A DNA stretch of 50,499 nucleotides from an uncultured Alphaproteobacteria bacterium. GTDB taxonomy: Bacteria > Pseudomonadota > Alphaproteobacteria > Rs-D84. Made by a program: the position numbers and the translations under genes. The notes under the pieces are model-generated. The model was not told the origin of the DNA, did not search any database, and saw only the letters and a program-made list of their open reading frames with translations. This document shows positions 10,908 to 48,346 of the stretch, piece by piece (position 1 is the first letter of the stretch; every line of letters starts with the position of its first letter). The stretch covers positions 1 to 50,499 of the forward strand of contig CALXML010000008.1 in assembly GCA_944389465.1 (NCBI GenBank), given 5' to 3'.

Positions 10908-11060
10908 TTGACGTAAAAGTATGATATAAGGTAAAATACAGCATATAAACAAATGCCGAAAATAAACCACCGATTAATATCGGTGTTTTTATTTTTGAAA
11001 AAATCCCAGATTTCTGCATTTTTTTGTTCCCCCATTTCGCCGAAATAAATCGGTGGTTTA
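10908..11060 (+). promoter_or_regulatory. Leader X1: promoter, terminator hairpin and competing helix
   Basis: First copy of repeat family X. The promoter is TTGACG (10908-10913), an 18-nt spacer, TAAAAT (10932-10937). The RNA would carry a terminator hairpin CACCGAT (10968-10974) / ATCGGTG (10979-10985) followed by a T run. A longer alternative helix TAAACCACCGATT (10963-10975) / AATCGGTGGTTTA (11048-11060) would disrupt it. A 31-codon open frame, 10953-11048, starts MPKINHRL. It is nearly identical to the copy at 24622-24802. This is the layout of a transcription attenuator; the signal it senses is unknown. Confidence 0.7.
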
Positions 11061-11108
11061 ATTCTTGCCACGACACTGTCATTTAACGCAAGGGCTGATA
11101 ATATTACT

Positions 11109-11978
11109 TTGTCCACATATAACTCTGACTATGATTATTCATCCACTGTTGCAGCAAGCATTTCTGCTTTTAGCGGCTTTGATATATGCAGTCGCGACCC
11201 AGACGCTGTTTATATATCTGGGGGTCAAGATAGATTTTGCAAAGTAATGTTAAAAAACGACCCACAACCATACTATTGTCGTACAACCGCCAGTATGGGG
11301 TATGGTTCAAATTGGGAACCGGGGGATTCAGATGGTGTATTAATAGATTGTTCTAATTTATTATGCAACAGCGGATACACAGCAGTATGGAATGACGATA
11401 TGCAAACTGTATATGGCTGTGCAAGATATCATCCAAATTCAAATTGTTGGGAACATGGTGGCGACACTGGAGTTTCTGTAAATCCATCACAATATTCAAA
11501 TATTATTACAAATTATAAAAGTATGAACGATGGTGCATTAGAGTGTGATTTTAATAGACGTGCCCGTCCAAGTACTAATGGGAATTGTGCAAACCCAAAT
11601 CTGGGCGAACTTTTAAAATGCTATTGCGCATATGATGAATCATATTATGTTTCTGGCAATGAAGCACCAAACGAGAATGGCCAAATAACAATTCTTTGTG
11701 CACCTTGTCCAGCCTATGCAGACTGCAACGGCCAGCGTGACCGCTTTCGTTGCCGTGCTGGTTACTATGATTATGACCCAAATTTATCGGGACGTGGTGC
11801 AAATTGCGTTCCTTGTCCCAGTGCATCATCAAATATTATTGATTTCTGTGACACACAGCCAACATCGCCAAGGGCGGCAACCAGTATAACACAATGCTAT
11901 CTGCCAACAGGCACTATGTGCAAAGACGTATACGGCACATTCAGCATTGTAAACAGAAATTGTTATTATTTAAACTAG
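11109..11978 (+). CDS. Secreted Cys-rich protein, start region apparently damaged
   Basis: A 289-residue reading frame from a TTG, rich in Cys, Tyr, Gly and Asn, with EGF- or TNFR-like CxxCP...GYY spacing and the C-terminal motif shared by this zone (ITQCYLPTGT ... NCYYLN). The frame is open back to 11049. Upstream of the TTG it encodes GGLILATTLSFNARAD, the core and cleavage site of a signal peptide, but no ATG, GTG or credible ribosome-binding site precedes it. The signal peptide abuts the leader X1 directly, whereas in other copies about 40 nt with the ribosome site and start lie between. The small ORF of X1 is in the same frame, separated by one TAA at 11046. It is probably a 5'-damaged gene, or one expressed from an unusual start. 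Confidence 0.6.
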   Translation: MSTYNSDYDYSSTVAASISAFSGFDICSRDPDAVYISGGQDRFCKVMLKNDPQPYYCRTTASMGYGSNWEPGDSDGVLIDCSNLLCNSGYTAVWNDDMQTVYGCARYHPNSNCWEHGGDTGVSVNPSQYSNIITNYKSMNDGALECDFNRRARPSTNGNCANPNLGELLKCYCAYDESYYVSGNEAPNENGQITILCAPCPAYADCNGQRDRFRCRAGYYDYDPNLSGRGANCVPCPSASSNIIDFCDTQPTSPRAATSITQCYLPTGTMCKDVYGTFSIVNRNCYYLN

Positions 11979-12038: not shown

Positions 12039-12318
12039 TTGTATTTGATTTTTTACTGATATATAATAAATGGTGTCAGCAGGTGTTCTGCTTGATGGGG
12101 TGTGAGAACCCGTTCACAAGCGTCGAAATAGATACTTATGGCGCAAGTAATGGCGCCGTTTTAAATATTACGACGAAAAATAAATCTCCTGATTTACGTC
12201 AGGAGGGCATGCGAATATATTGAATAAGCAGCACAATTCTTGTGATTGTTCTCAACCTCCTGACCACCAATTAAACATCGGTGGTTTTTTGTTTGTACAA
12301 AATCAGGAGATTGAAATT
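12039..12318 (+). promoter_or_regulatory. Leader Y-A: structured RNA with terminator, copy A
   Basis: Promoter TTGTAT (12039-12044), N17, TATAAT (12062-12067). Helices visible: P1 TCAGCA (12076-12081) / TGCTTGA (12089-12095); long-range GAGAAC (12104-12109) / GTTCTC (12248-12253); CGTCG (12121-12125) / CGACG (12171-12175); GGCGC / GCGCC within it. GTCAGGAGG (12198-12206) can pair either with the preceding CTCCTGA or with CCTCCTGAC (12256-12264). The terminator is CCACC (12264-12268) / GGTGG (12280-12284) with six T. ATCAGGAGATT (12302-12312), which contains the ribosome site of the next gene, is exactly complementary to 12183-12193. See the findings for compensatory changes between copies. 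Confidence 0.75.
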
Positions 12319-16304: not shown

Positions 16305-16450
16305 TTGACACACCCATGAAATTAAAGTAAAATAAAATTAAATAAATGCCGAAAATAAACCACCGATTAATGTCGGTGTTTTTATTTTAGAAAAAATCCC
16401 AGATTTCTGCATTTTTTTATTCCCCCATTTTGCCGAAATAAATCGGTCAT
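16305..16450 (+). promoter_or_regulatory. Leader X2: promoter and terminator hairpin, family X
   Basis: Promoter TTGACA (16305-16310), N17, TAAAAT (16328-16333), with a perfect -35. The body from ATGCCGAAAATAAACC onward follows X1 and X3 closely. It keeps the terminator hairpin ACCGATT/GTCGGT with a T-rich tail and the conserved stretch from TCCCAGATTTCTGC to CCGAAATAAATCGG. The downstream complementary arm is shortened here (AATCGGT only). The small ORF ends early, after 14 codons, so peptide coding is not conserved. Confidence 0.65.
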
Positions 16451-16479: not shown

Positions 16480-16836
16480 ATGAAAAAACATCAACTGTAT
16501 TGTATAGCCACACTTTCTGCTGTGGTATTTACTGTGCCATTACCTGCGCTGTCATTATCACTGGCCTGTCGCAGCAGTACAGAATGTTACAAAATGCTTT
16601 TAAGCAGTGGTTGTTGCTGTCCAAATGGGCAAACGGGCACATCATACACATGCCCTGACGGCTGGACTTATAACAATCTCCAAAAATTATGTATCCGCAC
16701 CGCCACCAGCGGCAGCGACAGCACCGGATATTACAACCAAACATACGGAACATGTGCCGGCACGGCCAGTACGCATGATTGCTATGTGGTTACCAGTAAC
16801 CCGTCGGATTCAACACAATGCTTATGCAAACGTTAA
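16480..16836 (+). CDS. Secreted Cys-rich protein, first gene of a two-gene cassette
   Basis: A 118-aa exported protein of unknown function. A signal peptide of about 28 residues is followed by CRSSTECYKML, then CCCPNGQTGTSYTCPDGW and a C-terminal CLCK. The start has a GGGG ribosome site. It is the paralogue of the minus-strand gene at 23282-23683, sharing CCCPxGxTGTSYxCPxGW and ATxGSDxxGxYxQxYGTC. A second secreted gene follows within 12 nt, as it does at the paralogous locus. Spacing of cysteines suggests disulfide-bonded extracellular domains. Confidence 0.8.
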   Translation: MKKHQLYCIATLSAVVFTVPLPALSLSLACRSSTECYKMLLSSGCCCPNGQTGTSYTCPDGWTYNNLQKLCIRTATSGSDSTGYYNQTYGTCAGTASTHDCYVVTSNPSDSTQCLCKR

Positions 16837-17291: not shown

Positions 17292-17536
17292 AAAAACCAC
17301 CAATTTTTTTGGTGGTCAGGAGGTTGAGAACAATCCAATGAATTGTGTCGTTTATTTGATATTCACGACCCTCCTGACAGAAATCAGGAGTTTATTTTTC
17401 GTCATAATATTAAAACCGGCGCATACACGCGCCACGTAATTACATTCTGACGCATTGGAACGGGTTTTCTCACACCCCATCAATGGGAACACCCACTGAC
17501 AATTATTATAATATCGTGTAAAACACCTTAATGCAA
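17292..17536 (-). promoter_or_regulatory. Leader Y-B: structured RNA copy B, no intact gene downstream
   Basis: Promoter on the minus strand: TTGCAT (17536-17531), N17, TATTAT (17513-17508). P1 reads TCAGTGGG/CCCATTGA. The long-range helix is GAGAA (in 17462-17473) with TTCTC (complement of 17326-17331). The CGTCA/TGACG helix differs from CGTCG/CGACG in copy A by a paired change. The CTCCTGA hairpin and its alternative partner CCTCCTGAC are present. The terminator stem is at 17297-17315, ending in a T run on the minus strand. No ribosome-binding site follows. Confidence 0.7.
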
Positions 17537-19515: not shown

Positions 19516-20328
19516 TCAGTCAGACCAATGACAATCCCCAACAATTTTAAACGTACCTGTTTCATTGTTATATTCCGTACCGCCGTTTTCATTTATTGGA
19601 TTCGCCACACAGTCATATCTACTTGTTGCCGCCCCGTCGGGTACAGACATCGCCCACGCCCCCAGTTCAAACGACTCGCCATTTTCACCCATCAGCGGAC
19701 ATTCCACACACGAAGAACCATTGGAATACGTTCCACCATCACAGGCCGCACAAGAACAATTTTCTTGCGTTTGATTTTGAACAATATATCCCTCGTCACA
19801 CGTACAAATATATGATGTAAAAGTTCCACTGCAACTGGCGTCACAACACCCTGTTTTGCTGCAACGTTTTGTATATGTGCTTATCCTGCGTTCACCATTT
19901 GACAATGGTACAGTATTAACGACAGGCTCTGACTCTATACAATACGCACCCGCACAGCTTGCCCGTTTCCACCACCACCGATATCGCCACCACCATCACA
20001 GGCAAATCCGCCATAAAACTGGGACGGAATTTCTTCGGTTTGCAAATCGCAAAAATCAAAAGTTACATTCCATTCCCAATCACAATAATTCAAATTGGGA
20101 TTCCAATACATTCCATCCGAACACGCATACGCATACAATTTTCCATTATCACATTCATAATACATTCGGCAATCACTTGACACCGGATAATACCGTATAT
20201 CCGTTAACCCTGTTGGACATTCTATTCCATCATTACAAACCCTATCAAATGCAGCGAAAGCATTGCTCGTCACCCCAACCATTAAATCCGCACCCGAAAC
20301 AAAATGCAAAAAATCTTATATTTTTCAT
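19516..20328 (-). pseudogene. Frameshifted secreted gene with peritrophin-A-like (CBM14) domain
   Basis: Three consecutive minus-strand frames join into one gene of about 270 codons. It starts at an ATG (20328) with a GGGGGA ribosome site (MKNIRFFAF). It shifts frame near a run of six T to continue as the rest of the signal peptide (TSNAFA) and a domain with cysteine spacing C-x15-C-x5-C-x9-C-x12-C-x10-C, containing YYPVSSDCRMYYECDNG and WNPNLNYCDW. This is the pattern of chitin-binding peritrophin-A domains. A Gly-rich linker follows. A second one-base shift near 19950-19975 leads into an EGF-like Cys-rich part (SKTGCCDASC, then CTCDEGY) and an ending TGTFKIVGDCHWSD. It may be a pseudogene, an assembly error, or phase variation. 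Confidence 0.65.
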
Positions 20329-20460
20329 ATTTCCCCCATTTATACCGAACCCAAACGAACCATTAGATTCGGCATTTTTATGGTTGACACAATCACGAAA
20401 ATCCCGATAAAATACATTCAGAATACAAAAACAAAAAAACGGTTCGTTTATTTTCGGCAT
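20329..20460 (-). promoter_or_regulatory. Leader X4: diverged copy of family X
   Basis: On the minus strand it begins ATGCCGAAAATAAACGAACCG like the other X leaders. AAACGAACC (20449-20441) is exactly complementary to GGTTCGTTT (20361-20353). In X1 and X3 the corresponding arms are TAAACCACCGATT and AATCGGTGGTTTA, so the sequence changed while pairing was kept. No separate promoter is seen; the mscL terminator lies directly upstream. The small ORF here reads in frame into the start of the secreted gene. Confidence 0.5.
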
Positions 20461-23683: not shown

Positions 23684-23958
23684 TTGTTCAATCTCCTGTT
23701 TTTGTTTTTCGTAATGAAAAACCACCAAAAAATTGGTGGTCAGGAGGTTGATGACAATTACTGGAATTGTGTTGCGTATTTAATATTTCGCAACCCTCCT
23801 GACCGAAATCAGGAGTTGTTATTTATCGTCGCAATAATAAAACCAGCGCAAATGCGCGCCACATTATTTATTCCGACGCCAGTACACGGGTCATCACACC
23901 CCATCAATGGAACACCCATTGACATAATTATGTTATCGCGCACAGCAAAACAATGCAA
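23684..23958 (-). promoter_or_regulatory. Leader Y-C: structured RNA copy C
   Basis: Minus-strand promoter TTGCAT (23958-23953), N17, TAACAT (23935-23930). P1 reads TCAATG/CATTGA. The long-range helix reads TGATGAC (complement of 23890-23896) with GTCATCA (complement of 23749-23755), a full exchange of bases relative to copies A, D and E with pairing kept. The CGTCGgAATAA/TTATTgCGACG helix is the longest of the set. The terminator is CCACCAA/TTGGTGG followed by T. CAGGAG of the ribosome site (complement of 23693-23698) can pair with CTCCTG in the leader. Confidence 0.75.
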
Positions 23959-23963
23959 GAATT

Positions 23964-23990
23964 AAAAAATCGCCCATTCGGGCGATTTTT
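23964..23990. terminator. Rho-independent terminator
   Basis: CGCCC (23971-23975) / GGGCG (23980-23984) with A and T runs on each side. It ends the minus-strand gene at 23989 and lies just upstream of the leader Y-C promoter. Confidence 0.8.
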
Positions 23991-24621
23991 ATTCAGTGTA
24001 ATAACAATTTTGCGTATACGTCAACGCACCTGTATCATCCCTGCCTATTGTACCGGCGGCTATATAGCATTCAGAAATACTGGTCGCACCAACATCCGCG
24101 GTTGTGCCATACATCCCATCCATGGCGGGGCAACGTGTACATGTATCAGCTATGCCAGAAATTGTACCCCAATACCCACGCTGACAAACACATTGTGTAA
24201 CATCCGTCGCACCATCTGGACTGGTTGCACCCGATGGGCAACTTTGACATGAAAAAATTGGCGGATTTGTTTCAGTATTCACCGTGCCATACGTTCCGGC
24301 CCAGCATTCTTCACGTGGAACACATGTATCTATGTAAACTGTGTCACATCCAAAATCTTCAAAATGTGCGGCATCCATTGTAACATTTTGTGTTGTTTTT
24401 GTTGTGCTGGACGGACAAGAACCACATTCCATTATACAGACTTTTTCACCAGTTAACTTGTAATATCCACCCGCCTCTACATATGTGGCACAAAACGTAC
24501 CAATGCGGTCATATTCAACAACACCCGAACACGATGGCGTCAAAGTACACGATACCGCCGCGCGCGCATTTTCAACCGCACAGCCAACACATAACACAGC
24601 AAAAAATATTATCTTTTTCAT
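23989..24621 (-). CDS. Secreted Cys-rich protein behind leader X3
   Basis: A 210-aa exported protein of unknown function. The ATG at 24621 has GGGGGA upstream; the signal peptide ends in ARA. The mature region has regularly spaced CxxC pairs (CGSCPSSTTK; CQSCPSGATSPDGATDVTQC; CQRGYWGT; CTRCPAMDG), like EGF/TNFR-type modules. It ends with ISECYIAAGTIGRD ... QNCYYTE, the C-terminal motif shared in this zone. Upstream ATGs (24657, 24633) are in the leader and lack ribosome sites. Confidence 0.8.
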   Translation of the reverse strand: MKKIIFFAVLCVGCAVENARAAVSCTLTPSCSGVVEYDRIGTFCATYVEAGGYYKLTGEKVCIMECGSCPSSTTKTTQNVTMDAAHFEDFGCDTVYIDTCVPREECWAGTYGTVNTETNPPIFSCQSCPSGATSPDGATDVTQCVCQRGYWGTISGIADTCTRCPAMDGMYGTTADVGATSISECYIAAGTIGRDDTGALTYTQNCYYTE

Positions 24622-24802
24622 ACAATCCCCCATTATTTCATTACGCAAATAAACCACCGATTTATTTCGGCAAAATGGGGGAACAAAAAAATGCAGAAAT
24701 CTGGGATTTTTTCAAAAATAAAAACACCGACATTAATCGGTGGTTTATTTTCGGCATTTGTTTATATGCTGTATTTTACCTTATATCATACTTTTACGTC
24801 AA
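24622..24802 (-). promoter_or_regulatory. Leader X3: promoter and attenuator-like hairpins, family X
   Basis: Almost identical to X1 but on the other strand. Promoter TTGACG (24802-24797), 18-nt spacer, TAAAAT (24778-24773). It has the terminator hairpin CACCGATT/GTCGGTG with a T-rich tail and the competing helix TAAACCACCGATT/AATCGGTGGTTTA. The small ORF 24757-24662 (MPKINHRL, 31 codons) is not in frame with the secreted gene. It lies back to back with leader Y-D, and the two promoters face away from each other. Confidence 0.7.
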
Positions 24803-24858: not shown

Positions 24859-25120
24859 TTGCATTAATAAATTTAACACGATATTATAACAATTGTCAGT
24901 GGGTGTTTCACTGATGGGGTGTCGAAACCTCTATACCAGCGTCGGAATAAACATTGGCGCGGTTTGCGCTGTTTTTATTAAGACGAAAAACAAACTCCTG
25001 ACCTTGGTCAGGAGGGTCACGAATATTAAATAAGTGACACAATTCTGGTAATTGTTTCGAACCTCCTGACCACCAACAAATTTGGTGGTTTTCTTATTCA
25101 GAAAAAACAGGAGTTTGAAA
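24859..25120 (+). promoter_or_regulatory. Leader Y-D: structured RNA copy D
   Basis: Promoter TTGCAT (24859-24864), N17, TATTAT (24882-24887). P1 reads TCAGTG/CACTGA. Long-range helix TCGAAAC (24922-24928) / GTTTCGA (25054-25060). Hairpin CTCCTGACC/GGTCAGGAG (24995-25014), whose 3' arm GGTCAGGAGG (25006-25015) is also complementary to CCTCCTGACC (25062-25071). Terminator CCACCAA (25070-25076) / TTGGTGG (25082-25088). The ribosome site CAGGAGTTTG (25108-25117) is exactly complementary to CAAACTCCTG (24991-25000). Two of the window's rare TCGA sites are the two arms of the long-range helix. Confidence 0.75.
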
Positions 25121-36214: not shown

Positions 36215-36293
36215 AAAATAAAAAACACCGATATTAATCGGTATTTATTCTGGGTATTTTTCCAGCATTATATTTCACCTTATTACCAGTAAA
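36215..36293 (-). promoter_or_regulatory. Promoter and hairpin before uvrA, weakly like family X
   Basis: On the minus strand a TATAAT (36272-36267) lies 15 nt after TTTACT (36293-36288). A hairpin ACCGATT/ATCGGT with a T-rich tail follows, similar to the first half of leaders X1 and X3. The downstream complementary arm is not seen. It may be a degenerate copy, or simply a promoter plus hairpin. Confidence 0.35.
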
Positions 36294-45634: not shown

Positions 45635-48220
45635 TTATTCACACCATGAACTTGTCCCGCCCTTTTGGTACAGTTCATCACACAAATCAGATAATTTTTC
45701 CATGGATTCAGCATACTCACGCCGTTCTGTTTCAGACATTTGTGAATATAATAACTCTATTTCATCCAACGATTTCTGTCCCATAACTTTACCACCAATC
45801 AGGCGGTTACCGAACAATTCCATAATGCCAACACCCAATCCGGCACCACCAACAGCACCACCCACACTGGCCCATACGCGTCCTGATTTACGTGCATCCA
45901 ACGCCCGTTTACGCAAAGTATCACGATTTGTCCACGCGCCACACGTAATTCTTTGTCCCACCATAAACCAGCGCGATGGAATATCAGATACTTTTATTTT
46001 GATATTGTCAGATTCAATATCAACACGCACCCAACAAGCATTATTTTGTGGGTTATTCACGTCTTCTATCATACGCGCATAATCAGTTCCATCACTGTTT
46101 TGTGCGGCCCACACAAACACATTGCCATATCCGACATTATTACCAACACATCCATCTTTATCAACCGCACCATTTATTGTAAACACATCATCAAAGTCAG
46201 CAATTTTTTCACCATCTATGGCACATCCCAATTCTTCAAAACCGGTTTCAATATGCTTGTCTTTAACAATCTTGTTCACAACCAAACCACCAACCGTCCC
46301 CAGCGCAACCCCAGCAATAGAATCAGACAACAAACGCGACGTATTGAATTTCCCTTCTGCATTTTTCCATACAGAAACCTTGTCATCAGCATGCGCATCT
46401 TCTATATCCTGAATCTTGCCGGCATATCTGTTAATTTGCGATTGCAAATTTGCAATTTCAGTTGCGGCCTGTTGCTGAGCAGATTGCGCGGCACGTTGCG
46501 ATAAAATCTGTTGCATTTGTGTCGTCGGCATACACACACCTTCAAATACAATATACCCTGTAACACCACGTTCACATTCATTACGTGTATCCGTGCCTAC
46601 AAAACATTTTGCGTTTTCACCAGTGCCCTCTAAACGATAACCATCTTTACACGCAGTCGGCACACAGTCATCAATAGTTTGGTTATATACCGCCGCGGTT
46701 GCATTTAATCTGTCCAATGTTGCATTACTGCACGCAATAACGACAACCTCGTCCAATTCACCGCCAAAGACAACATCATTCGCAATACATTGCAAATCAG
46801 TTTTATTTCCATCAATAATATTCAAATGACTATTCGCATCAGTGCAATATGTTGATGCCACACACCAACCCTGTGATGCCCCAGATGAATTTACCACCAA
46901 ATAAGTCCCATTTTGACACGCGGTCGCGGCACACACCACCCCAATACCATTATCAATATAAGTACCGGCCGTGGCATATTGTGGTAAATCAGCAGGCTCA
47001 CAATTTGTGCCAATTACATTATTTTTAATCACCCCGTTTACACCTCCACTGCCACCGGATGATTTTGCCCCATCATTATCGGCAACGCATTTTCCACCAA
47101 CACGTGTATATCCCGCATCCGCGCATTCCCACATCCAACAAAATCCAACATTTGCGTCATTGGCGGCATATAATTGTATATGTGTTTCTTCCTGATTTTC
47201 CGGCACAGAATACCCCGGACATAAACCAATCTCGGTATTTGCAGACCAATGGTCATCCAAAAAGCGGCCCTTTAACCATGGTTGTTCTTCCTTATATTCT
47301 TTCTTGCCTTGGACACAGTAACGAACATATGGAAATTCAGCAAACATTTTGTCCCCTATTTCGGCGCGATATGCATCAATATTACTTAATTTTGAAATAT
47401 TACAGCATGCATAAATCCCCAACACTGGGTCACGTTCGCAATCAGTTTCGGAAAACATTTCTGCACCCGCCCCCAATGTGCCAACAACCGAACCAACCAA
47501 CAATGCACCACCATATGCAATCTGGCCACCAACAGGAATTGCATTAACAAATGCGGCGGCACCTGCGGCAAAACTGGCACCCGATAAAGCACCTGCACCA
47601 ACATCACCCCATGTGGCTTTGTCCGTTCCTGCAACACTTTCATACAATCCGACGCCACCGCCAACCATACCCAAAACACCCAACGCAGCACCACCAACAT
47701 TCACGCGCGACGCCGCAGATGCACCAGATGTACCACCACTATTACCACCGCCACCGGTACTGCCACCAGAGCCAGTGTTACCACCAGAACCGCCGCCAGC
47801 ACCCCCAGTGGCATTACCACCCGTTGTTGCTGGCAAATTTGAACCACCGCCCGTTGTTGTAACAGCGGTCCCAGCAGAACCACCAGTAATCTGGCGTGGC
47901 ACCGAACCACCACCAGTCAACTGGCGTGACGTTGGAACGGTTGTATTGGATGTGGTTGTACCAGTTCCAGCCCCAGTCCCCATTCCACCAGTGGTGGTGA
48001 CCGTACTGGTACGCCAATTTATTTTCTGACCATTTTTAGCATAAATATCAGCAACTTTCTGTGCCTGTGCCCGTGTACCAACATTTCCAATAATATTGCC
48101 GGACGAATCTTGGATTCTGAAACCTGAACCAGTGGAAAAAATATCAATATCAGCCCACGCCCCTGTAAATATCATAAACAAAAACATACCGACAAAAAAA
48201 CCGACGTTTGTTTTCGGCAT
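45635..48220 (-). CDS. Large secreted Gly-rich and Cys-rich protein
   Basis: An 861-aa exported protein of unknown function. The chosen ATG at 48220 opens MPKTNVGFFVGMFLFMIFTG with cleavage after AWA. Then come a Thr/Gly linker (about residues 60-180; runs of GGG, TGG, GSGG) and hydrophobic Gly/Ala-rich segments (GGAALGVLGMVGGGVGLY; ALLVGSVVGTLGAGAEMF) that could insert in a membrane. A central Cys-rich part follows, then a coiled coil (QRAAQSAQQQAATEIANLQSQINRY), another Gly-rich hydrophobic hairpin and a helical C-terminus ending SSWCE. It is the last big gene before the spanin-like pair. Surface structure or secreted effector are possibilities only. Confidence 0.8.
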   Translation of the reverse strand: MPKTNVGFFVGMFLFMIFTGAWADIDIFSTGSGFRIQDSSGNIIGNVGTRAQAQKVADIYAKNGQKINWRTSTVTTTGGMGTGAGTGTTTSNTTVPTSRQLTGGGSVPRQITGGSAGTAVTTTGGGSNLPATTGGNATGGAGGGSGGNTGSGGSTGGGGNSGGTSGASAASRVNVGGAALGVLGMVGGGVGLYESVAGTDKATWGDVGAGALSGASFAAGAAAFVNAIPVGGQIAYGGALLVGSVVGTLGAGAEMFSETDCERDPVLGIYACCNISKLSNIDAYRAEIGDKMFAEFPYVRYCVQGKKEYKEEQPWLKGRFLDDHWSANTEIGLCPGYSVPENQEETHIQLYAANDANVGFCWMWECADAGYTRVGGKCVADNDGAKSSGGSGGVNGVIKNNVIGTNCEPADLPQYATAGTYIDNGIGVVCAATACQNGTYLVVNSSGASQGWCVASTYCTDANSHLNIIDGNKTDLQCIANDVVFGGELDEVVVIACSNATLDRLNATAAVYNQTIDDCVPTACKDGYRLEGTGENAKCFVGTDTRNECERGVTGYIVFEGVCMPTTQMQQILSQRAAQSAQQQAATEIANLQSQINRYAGKIQDIEDAHADDKVSVWKNAEGKFNTSRLLSDSIAGVALGTVGGLVVNKIVKDKHIETGFEELGCAIDGEKIADFDDVFTINGAVDKDGCVGNNVGYGNVFVWAAQNSDGTDYARMIEDVNNPQNNACWVRVDIESDNIKIKVSDIPSRWFMVGQRITCGAWTNRDTLRKRALDARKSGRVWASVGGAVGGAGLGVGIMELFGNRLIGGKVMGQKSLDEIELLYSQMSETERREYAESMEKLSDLCDELYQKGGTSSWCE

Positions 48221-48265
48221 AATACAAGTGGGAAATGCATGCAAATTTACGGGCAATCAGCAAAT

Positions 48266-48306
48266 AAAAAAATGCCGTCTAAAATCGTCCCTTTAAATTC
48301 GGCATC
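48266..48306 (-). terminator. Hairpin with T run upstream of the 861-aa gene
   Basis: ATGCCG (complement of 48300-48305) / CGGCAT (complement of 48272-48277) with a long loop, then six T on the minus strand, 45 nt before the gene. It could be a second rho terminator or a leader attenuator. Confidence 0.5.
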
Positions 48307-48346
48307 TTATTTGAATATATACTATCACATTTTTCAATATATTACA

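Follow-up and report, generated by a model that had tools for sequence, protein, structure and literature searches.

An 84-bp DNA segment upstream of secreted-protein genes in a gut alphaproteobacterium is very probably an inversion switch

What is the function of the element that recurs before several genes in the window, the whole 50,499-nucleotide stretch of DNA analysed here? The host genus is Candidatus Enterousia or a close relative (Alphaproteobacteria); PMC12306168 places Candidatus Enterousia in the order Rs-D84 as a gut lineage with a reduced genome, and its main text makes no mention of inversion. A sequence-only reading had portrayed the element, termed X, as an RNA leader. The components it listed (a promoter, an intrinsic terminator, a conserved long-range pair and a conserved middle) are all present, but the roles it gave them, those of an antiterminator helix and a sensing segment in RNA, did not hold. 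The copies X1, X2 and X3 lie where that reading had placed them: X1 and X3 are 98% complementary over 166 nt, X2 and X3 are 95% complementary over 117 nt, and a conserved 21-mer has exactly three matches in the window against 0 expected. Each of the three carries, as had been claimed, a promoter-like TTGAC./TAAAAT pair with a spacing of 17–18, and a CACCGAT..ATCGGTG hairpin with a T run followed by the far complementary strand. The diverged X4 also exists, with AAACGAACC at 20353–20361 and GGTTCGTTT at 20441–20449, the centres being 85 bp apart and the promoter enclosed by the two repeats instead of preceding them. X5, the fifth copy in the window, has also diverged and lies on the minus strand at about 48190–48310, and blastn returned 16 full-length copies in the window's own genome (G000; 0.95 Mb, 99% complete). 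Another blastn match to X, at 36215–36259 on the minus strand, is apparently just a similar intrinsic terminator and no switch.

We consider it highly probable that X is a DNA inversion (phase-variation) switch, likely flipped by an Mpi-type enzyme, a reading built on the anatomy of the sites, in-frame fusions, coding constraint, terminator asymmetry, the occurrence of both orientations in nature and co-occurrence with an Mpi orthologue. The features are named below according to this reading, the recombination sites and invertible segments being predicted.

10908–10937, plus strand: X1 promoter, TTGACG (10908–10913), 18 bp, TAAAAT (10932–10937), outside the invertible segment
10955–10975, plus strand: X1 left recombination site, with outer arm GCCGAAAATAAAC, core CACC and GATT; crossover centre between 10969 and 10970
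10968–10996, plus strand: X1 OFF-state intrinsic terminator, CACCGATTAATATCGGTG and TTTTTATTTTT; dG -8.8 in OFF, none found in ON
10970–11053, no strand: X1 invertible segment, 84 bp from one crossover centre to the other
10970–11019, minus strand in the OFF orientation: X1 start codon and codons MQKSGIFSKIKTPILI.., under codon constraint
11027–11033, minus strand: X1 Shine-Dalgarno sequence GGGGGAA, serving the invertible start codon (TTCCCCC in the earlier reading)
11048–11060, plus strand: X1 right recombination site AATCGGTGGTTTA, with its crossover centred between 11053 and 11054
11054–11978, plus strand: X1 gene, second signal-peptide half (GGLILATTLSFNARA) and Cys-rich secreted protein; no start codon in OFF
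16305–16333, plus strand: X2 promoter, TTGACA/TAAAAT
16363–16446, no strand: X2 invertible segment, 84 bp; the two cores, CACC on the left and GACC on the right, have the central AC in common
16480–16836, plus strand: X2 gene with its own Shine-Dalgarno sequence and ATG; Cys-rich secreted protein, 118 aa
19935–20328, minus strand: X4 gene, CBM_14 chitin-binding protein, start ATG at 20328
20359–20443, no strand: X4 invertible segment, 85 bp; its core is GAAC, which replaces CACC
20384–20389 and 20408–20413: X4 promoter (TTGACA and TAAAAT), inside the segment; as assembled, it reads into a terminator-like hairpin, in the direction opposite to the gene
23989–24621, minus strand: X3 gene with its own Shine-Dalgarno sequence and ATG; it encodes a 210-aa Cys-rich secreted protein with an Ephrin_rec_like domain
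24657–24740, no strand: X3 invertible segment, 84 bp
24773–24802, minus strand: X3 promoter, TTGACG/TAAAAT
45635–48203, minus strand: X5 gene; with the segment inverted, it encodes a secreted protein of 872 aa (MQIYGQSANKKMPSKIV, then GFFVGMFLFMIFTGAWA, then D)
48204–48288, no strand: X5 invertible segment, 85 bp; a diverged copy with GA at the centre and complementarity at 9 of 12 core positions

The conserved middle had been suggested as the sensing part. Read on the opposite strand, it consists instead of a Shine-Dalgarno sequence and an ATG, followed by an open reading frame that shows synonymous changes (codons MQKSGIFSKIKTP..IGG), that is, the antisense of the start of a codon-conserved peptide. 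On the 3' side of the right-hand repeat, many copies enter the second half of a signal peptide without a start codon; in X1 an in-frame TAA stands just before this half, and other copies have their own Shine-Dalgarno sequence and ATG. Flipping the 84 bp yields GGGGGAAC-AAAAAA-ATG CAG AAA TCT GGG ATT TTT TCA AAA ATA AAA ACA CCG .. ATC GGT GGT, in frame with the gene. Inversion therefore accounts at once for the antisense frame, for the start-less genes and for the separate start signals of the remaining copies. Inverted in silico, X1 gives MQKSGIFSKIKTPILIGGLILATTLSFNARA joined to DNITL... (324 aa, with a signal peptide) and X5 gives MQIYGQSANKKMPSKIVGFFVGMFLFMIFTGAWA joined to D... (872 aa). 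Since the genes behind X2 and X3 have starts of their own, inversion of these two copies creates just an upstream frame of 21 aa. We thus distinguish type B (X1, X5), where the segment supplies the start of the gene and holds the start codon and about 17 codons, from type A (X2, X3), where the gene keeps its own ribosome-binding site (RBS) and ATG.

The same pattern extends beyond the window. In 9 of the 16 copies of G000 the gene lacks a start codon until the segment is inverted, and inversion in silico produces signal-peptide fusions, the signal peptides being called by eye. Across 15 related genomes, inversion creates an in-frame fusion of at least 90 aa in 43 of 69 clean copies, a count that excludes the diverged copies L008, L012, L093 and L139, which the core-anchored site finder had mis-centred. 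When the frame was shifted by 1 or 2 at the junction, only 1 and 2 of those 43 fusions remained, and over all 69 copies the two shifts gave 12 and 4 fusions. Translational bypassing or stop read-through was also considered for the start-less signal peptides and was dropped, since inversion gives an in-frame fusion at 43 loci. The body of the segment behaves as coding sequence: in G000 and G058 we counted 185 synonymous and 109 non-synonymous single-difference codons, a synonymous fraction of 0.63 against a neutral expectation of 0.22, and in all genomes the fraction was 0.32, the other two reading frames giving 0.11 and 0.16; these pair counts are descriptive, the copies being related. Shine-Dalgarno function is kept despite sequence change, as in L013 and L016, where GGGGGAA has become AAAGGAA. 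In the type A copies L014 and L015 the invertible ATG is lost and a strong terminator is kept, as expected if the terminator alone matters there. The terminator itself depends on orientation, a hairpin plus T run with a dG of -6 or lower being found in 54 of 69 OFF forms versus 9 of 69 ON forms.

By this anatomy, inverted repeats flank a segment whose orientation alters the expression unit, and the promoter keeps the same side of the switch even in copies with a diverged promoter sequence. In the mechanism we propose, the outside promoter would always face the gene, with two inverted sites flanking 84 bp. At a type B locus in the OFF state, the transcript would meet the intrinsic terminator, and the gene would be left without an RBS, a start codon and the N-terminal half of its signal peptide; all three would be provided in frame by inversion, which would also move the T run away. 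At a type A locus, where the gene retains its own RBS and ATG, the terminator alone would be switched. Among the copies in the window, only X4, and not X1, X2, X3 or X5, has its promoter inside the segment, and it would be a classical invertible promoter with the same arms and a different core. We infer that the segments invert within one population, that gene expression is thereby turned ON and OFF, and that the Mpi of G000 is the catalyst.

Both orientations were found in nature. At a syntenic locus between pheT and nth (the nth side being an endonuclease-III-like gene named by eye), the switch is OFF in G000, G043 and G073 and ON in G012, G041 and G058. The product of this locus is a small secreted protein with two helices that resembles a VirB2/TrbC pilin, and a search of it against Pfam gave no match. 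Paralogues within one genome likewise differ in the direction of the body while their flanks are collinear (L093/L087 and L091/L090 in G045, L112/L130 in G041, L038/L044 in G020). An automatic rule comparing the promoter side with the gene side called 50 copies OFF and 5 ON, the rest being without a call, and inspection added at least six further ON copies (L028, L087, L130, L132, L139 and L140). All 16 copies of G000 are OFF, and the ON cases belong to other species or are paralogues. A sequence model, R1, built from 24 copies matched in 45 of the 59 genomes of the genus, the model having been trained almost solely on OFF copies so that ON copies are underweighted; scanning genome_contigs for an exact pattern gave 0 matches. 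Four alphaproteobacterial samples in an earlier genome-wide survey were reported to lack an inversion signature (PMC5903667).

The two strands that had been read as a competing helix, TAAACCACCGATT and AATCGGTGGTTTA, are better explained as a pair of inverted DNA recombination sites around a segment found both ways round. The arms, GCCGAA..TAAAC and GTTTA..TTCGGC, surround a central AC, and the segment measures 83–86 bp, mostly 84–85; in G012 (from L037) they form the palindrome GCCGAATCTAAAC-CACC-GTTTAGATTCGGC. The automatic site finder demanded identical central two bases in both sites, and given this match 24 of the 69 copies still differ in outer core positions. In the A1 alignment, which is independent of that rule, the central columns pair in 24 of 24 copies, once through a double change. 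The central dinucleotide differs among loci, being mostly AC, AA in X4, L042 and L112, and TC, GA or CC elsewhere. A match over 2 bp is a typical requirement of serine recombinases, and a central dinucleotide that is common to partner sites and changes jointly in variants is as expected for such an enzyme. The inner site, TAAACC-AC-CGTTTA, also resembles Hin/Gin/Cin sites (AAACC-AA-GGTTT). The earlier observation that pairing survives sequence change was borne out in the arms, where seven cells changed on both sides and covariation reached 0.062 against 0.020 in shuffles (0 of 500 as high). Together with the genus-wide spread, these co-varying arms speak against the view that the copies are recent duplicates only. 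Right-hand arms are degenerate in some copies (X2, L010, L011 and L015), so some copies could be locked. G000 has further switches, L133 (G000:C9:9083–9194) and L142 (G000:C1:94738–94850), with the cores GTCC and GGAC; because of these different cores they should not recombine with the CACC loci. Also in G000, L018 (G000:C1:32996–33029) appears to be an invertible segment that has the same arms and a promoter inside it, located before a secreted-protein gene (MQKSRNFLKVMLDIVCMLCVSNAFA) and 1.6 kb from a xerD-like gene.

G000 encodes two small serine recombinases. One, at G000:C3:83682–84311, scores 306.9 bits against the NCBIfam model NF009949 (Mpi master DNA invertase; cut-off 272). The other, Mpi-like, at G000:C6:18004 (C6:16500–20000, L148), scores 256.2 bits, below the cut-off, and lies on the same contig as a phage-type integrase (G000:C6:32661–33152, L022). 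The Mpi clade (at least 77% identity) is present in 23 of the 59 genomes, and at least three R1 matches occur in 22 of these 23 versus 6 of the 36 genomes without the clade (Fisher P 1.4e-9, uncorrected for phylogeny); G006, G023, G042 and G047 have switch matches without the clade. One Mpi relative in the named collection comes from Candidatus Enterousia excrementavium. Family membership and co-occurrence make the Mpi-family master DNA invertase the probable recombinase of the switches, and the enzyme at G000:C3:83682–84311 would likely act on all loci. IS110/Piv was considered as a source of the recombinase, and no IS110/Piv enzyme was found.

Flipping of the same switch by XerC/XerD instead of Mpi appears unlikely. 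These enzymes are present in nearly all genomes and a xerC-like gene is the immediate upstream neighbour of an X copy in G000 (L021/L004, G000:C9:35542–36253), but they also occur in genomes without switches, and it is the Mpi clade that tracks the switches. Partner sites, moreover, strictly share the central 2 bp only, and tyrosine recombinases need a longer matching overlap than this. In several switch-rich genomes, for example G058 and G018, the tyrosine recombinases number only two, read as XerC and XerD.

A cis-acting RNA attenuator, in which the terminator would compete with the long helix and the middle would sense a ligand, is very improbable, even though the promoter, the terminator and the conserved complementarity would all suit it. 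The competing strand lies 3' of the terminator and would therefore be transcribed solely after the terminator has been passed. Nor does an attenuator agree with the occurrence of both orientations, with the codon-constrained ORF that the middle forms on the other strand, or with genes that have no start codon in the OFF state. Among the paired arm variants there is one G-U alone, and an Rfam search matched tRNAs alone and no riboswitch or leader family. It is scarcely credible that X is a mobile palindromic element, of the MITE or Rickettsia-palindromic-element type, inserted before genes by chance: such an element would fit the many similar copies scattered over a small alphaproteobacterial genome, but the length is fixed at 83–86 bp, the context of promoter, element and secreted-protein gene is constant and in register with the signal peptide, and the same syntenic site is occupied in six species in two orientations. 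Equally remote is a type I toxin-antitoxin system with a small hydrophobic minus-strand peptide and an antisense RNA from the plus-strand promoter: the OFF minus strand does encode MQKSGIFSKIKTPILIGGLFSAFV.. with a Shine-Dalgarno sequence and ATG, but no conserved minus-strand promoter was seen, the length and C-terminus of the peptide vary with the flank, and in ON copies this ORF forms the N-terminus of complete secreted proteins.

The genes under the proposed inversion switch mostly encode secreted Cys-rich proteins of about 120–350 aa, and many of the proteins have a similar C-terminus (..ITQCYLPTGT..GTFSIVNRNCYY..). Pfam matches were scraps, namely Ephrin_rec_like in the X3 product, carboxypeptidase-regulatory-like repeats in L004 and CBM_14 in the X4 product; the X1 gene product had no Pfam match. 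At 20300–20330 (minus strand), the ATG and Shine-Dalgarno sequence of the CBM_14 gene are out of frame with the signal peptide, and the break, at a T6 run, could reflect slipped-strand variation, a pseudogene or an assembly error.

The design can be compared with several known systems. In cwpV of Clostridioides difficile, a surface-protein gene, the promoter lies outside a 195-bp segment without an ORF and a terminator has been proposed for the OFF transcript (PMC2784873). The promoter outside the inverted segment and the intrinsic terminator in the OFF orientation are shared by X, whereas type B packs an RBS, a start codon and half a signal peptide into 84 bp; type A resembles cwpV in having no part of the ORF in the segment, and type B differs in this respect. 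The C. difficile recombinase is RecV (PMC7446863), in contrast to the serine Mpi-family invertase implicated here. In Bacteroides fragilis, the single serine recombinase Mpi acts through promoter inversions on 13 dispersed regions controlling surface structures (PMC4747536). The candidate enzyme for X belongs to the same NCBIfam family, and one enzyme is likewise proposed to serve many dispersed sites; unlike those of B. fragilis, the X segments mostly carry start codons and terminators with the promoter outside, in an alphaproteobacterium with a genome below 1 Mb. In the mycoplasmas, the Vpma, Vsp and Vsa systems (M. agalactiae, M. bovis and M. pulmonis) join one unique promoter to silent genes at a single locus, and the Mpl genes of M. 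penetrans have invertible promoters (PMC2268961). All four resemble X in comprising surface-protein families with site-specific inversion, a conserved 5' end plus signal peptide, and small genomes, but each X gene, unlike those of Vpma, Vsp and Vsa, has its own small segment. Type B inversion changes the coding sequence, which it would share with the intragenic DNA inversions that Chanin et al. reportedly described in 2024 as altering the coding sequence itself. In the open-access papers searched, we found no description of a small standard cassette that switches a terminator, an RBS, a start codon and half a signal peptide together at many loci of a single genome.

The window holds other repeats as well. 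Members of a second family, at 12217–12275 (minus strand), 17293–17418 (plus), 23716–23800 (plus) and 24967–25093 (minus), have the sequence AAACCACCA..TTGGTGGTCAGGAGGTTG..AATTGTG..CCCTCCTGAC..ATCAGGAG and hold an SD-like AGGAGG together with its complement; this is probably another leader family. At the very end of the contig (50348–50497), a 75-nt unit is present in two perfect tandem copies.

An inversion switch explains the widespread repeated "leader" of Candidatus Enterousia. Its design is compact and would combine transcriptional with translational control, the OFF state having a terminator and the ON state an RBS, a start codon and a signal-peptide half. Genes of the X1 and X5 type are probably mis-annotated across the group because gene callers misplace the start or miss OFF genes. 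A broader reading, to which we give slightly less than even weight, is genome-wide antigenic variation, in which about 20 standardised 84-bp cassettes with the translation start and half the signal peptide of different secreted proteins would be flipped by a single Mpi-type invertase, and the all-OFF genome would reflect rare ON states; most cassettes have one common core, so recombination between loci might occur. The switch predicts which proteins are varied at the cell surface, and this gut bacterium with its tiny genome is probably able to switch many of its secreted proteins between on and off.
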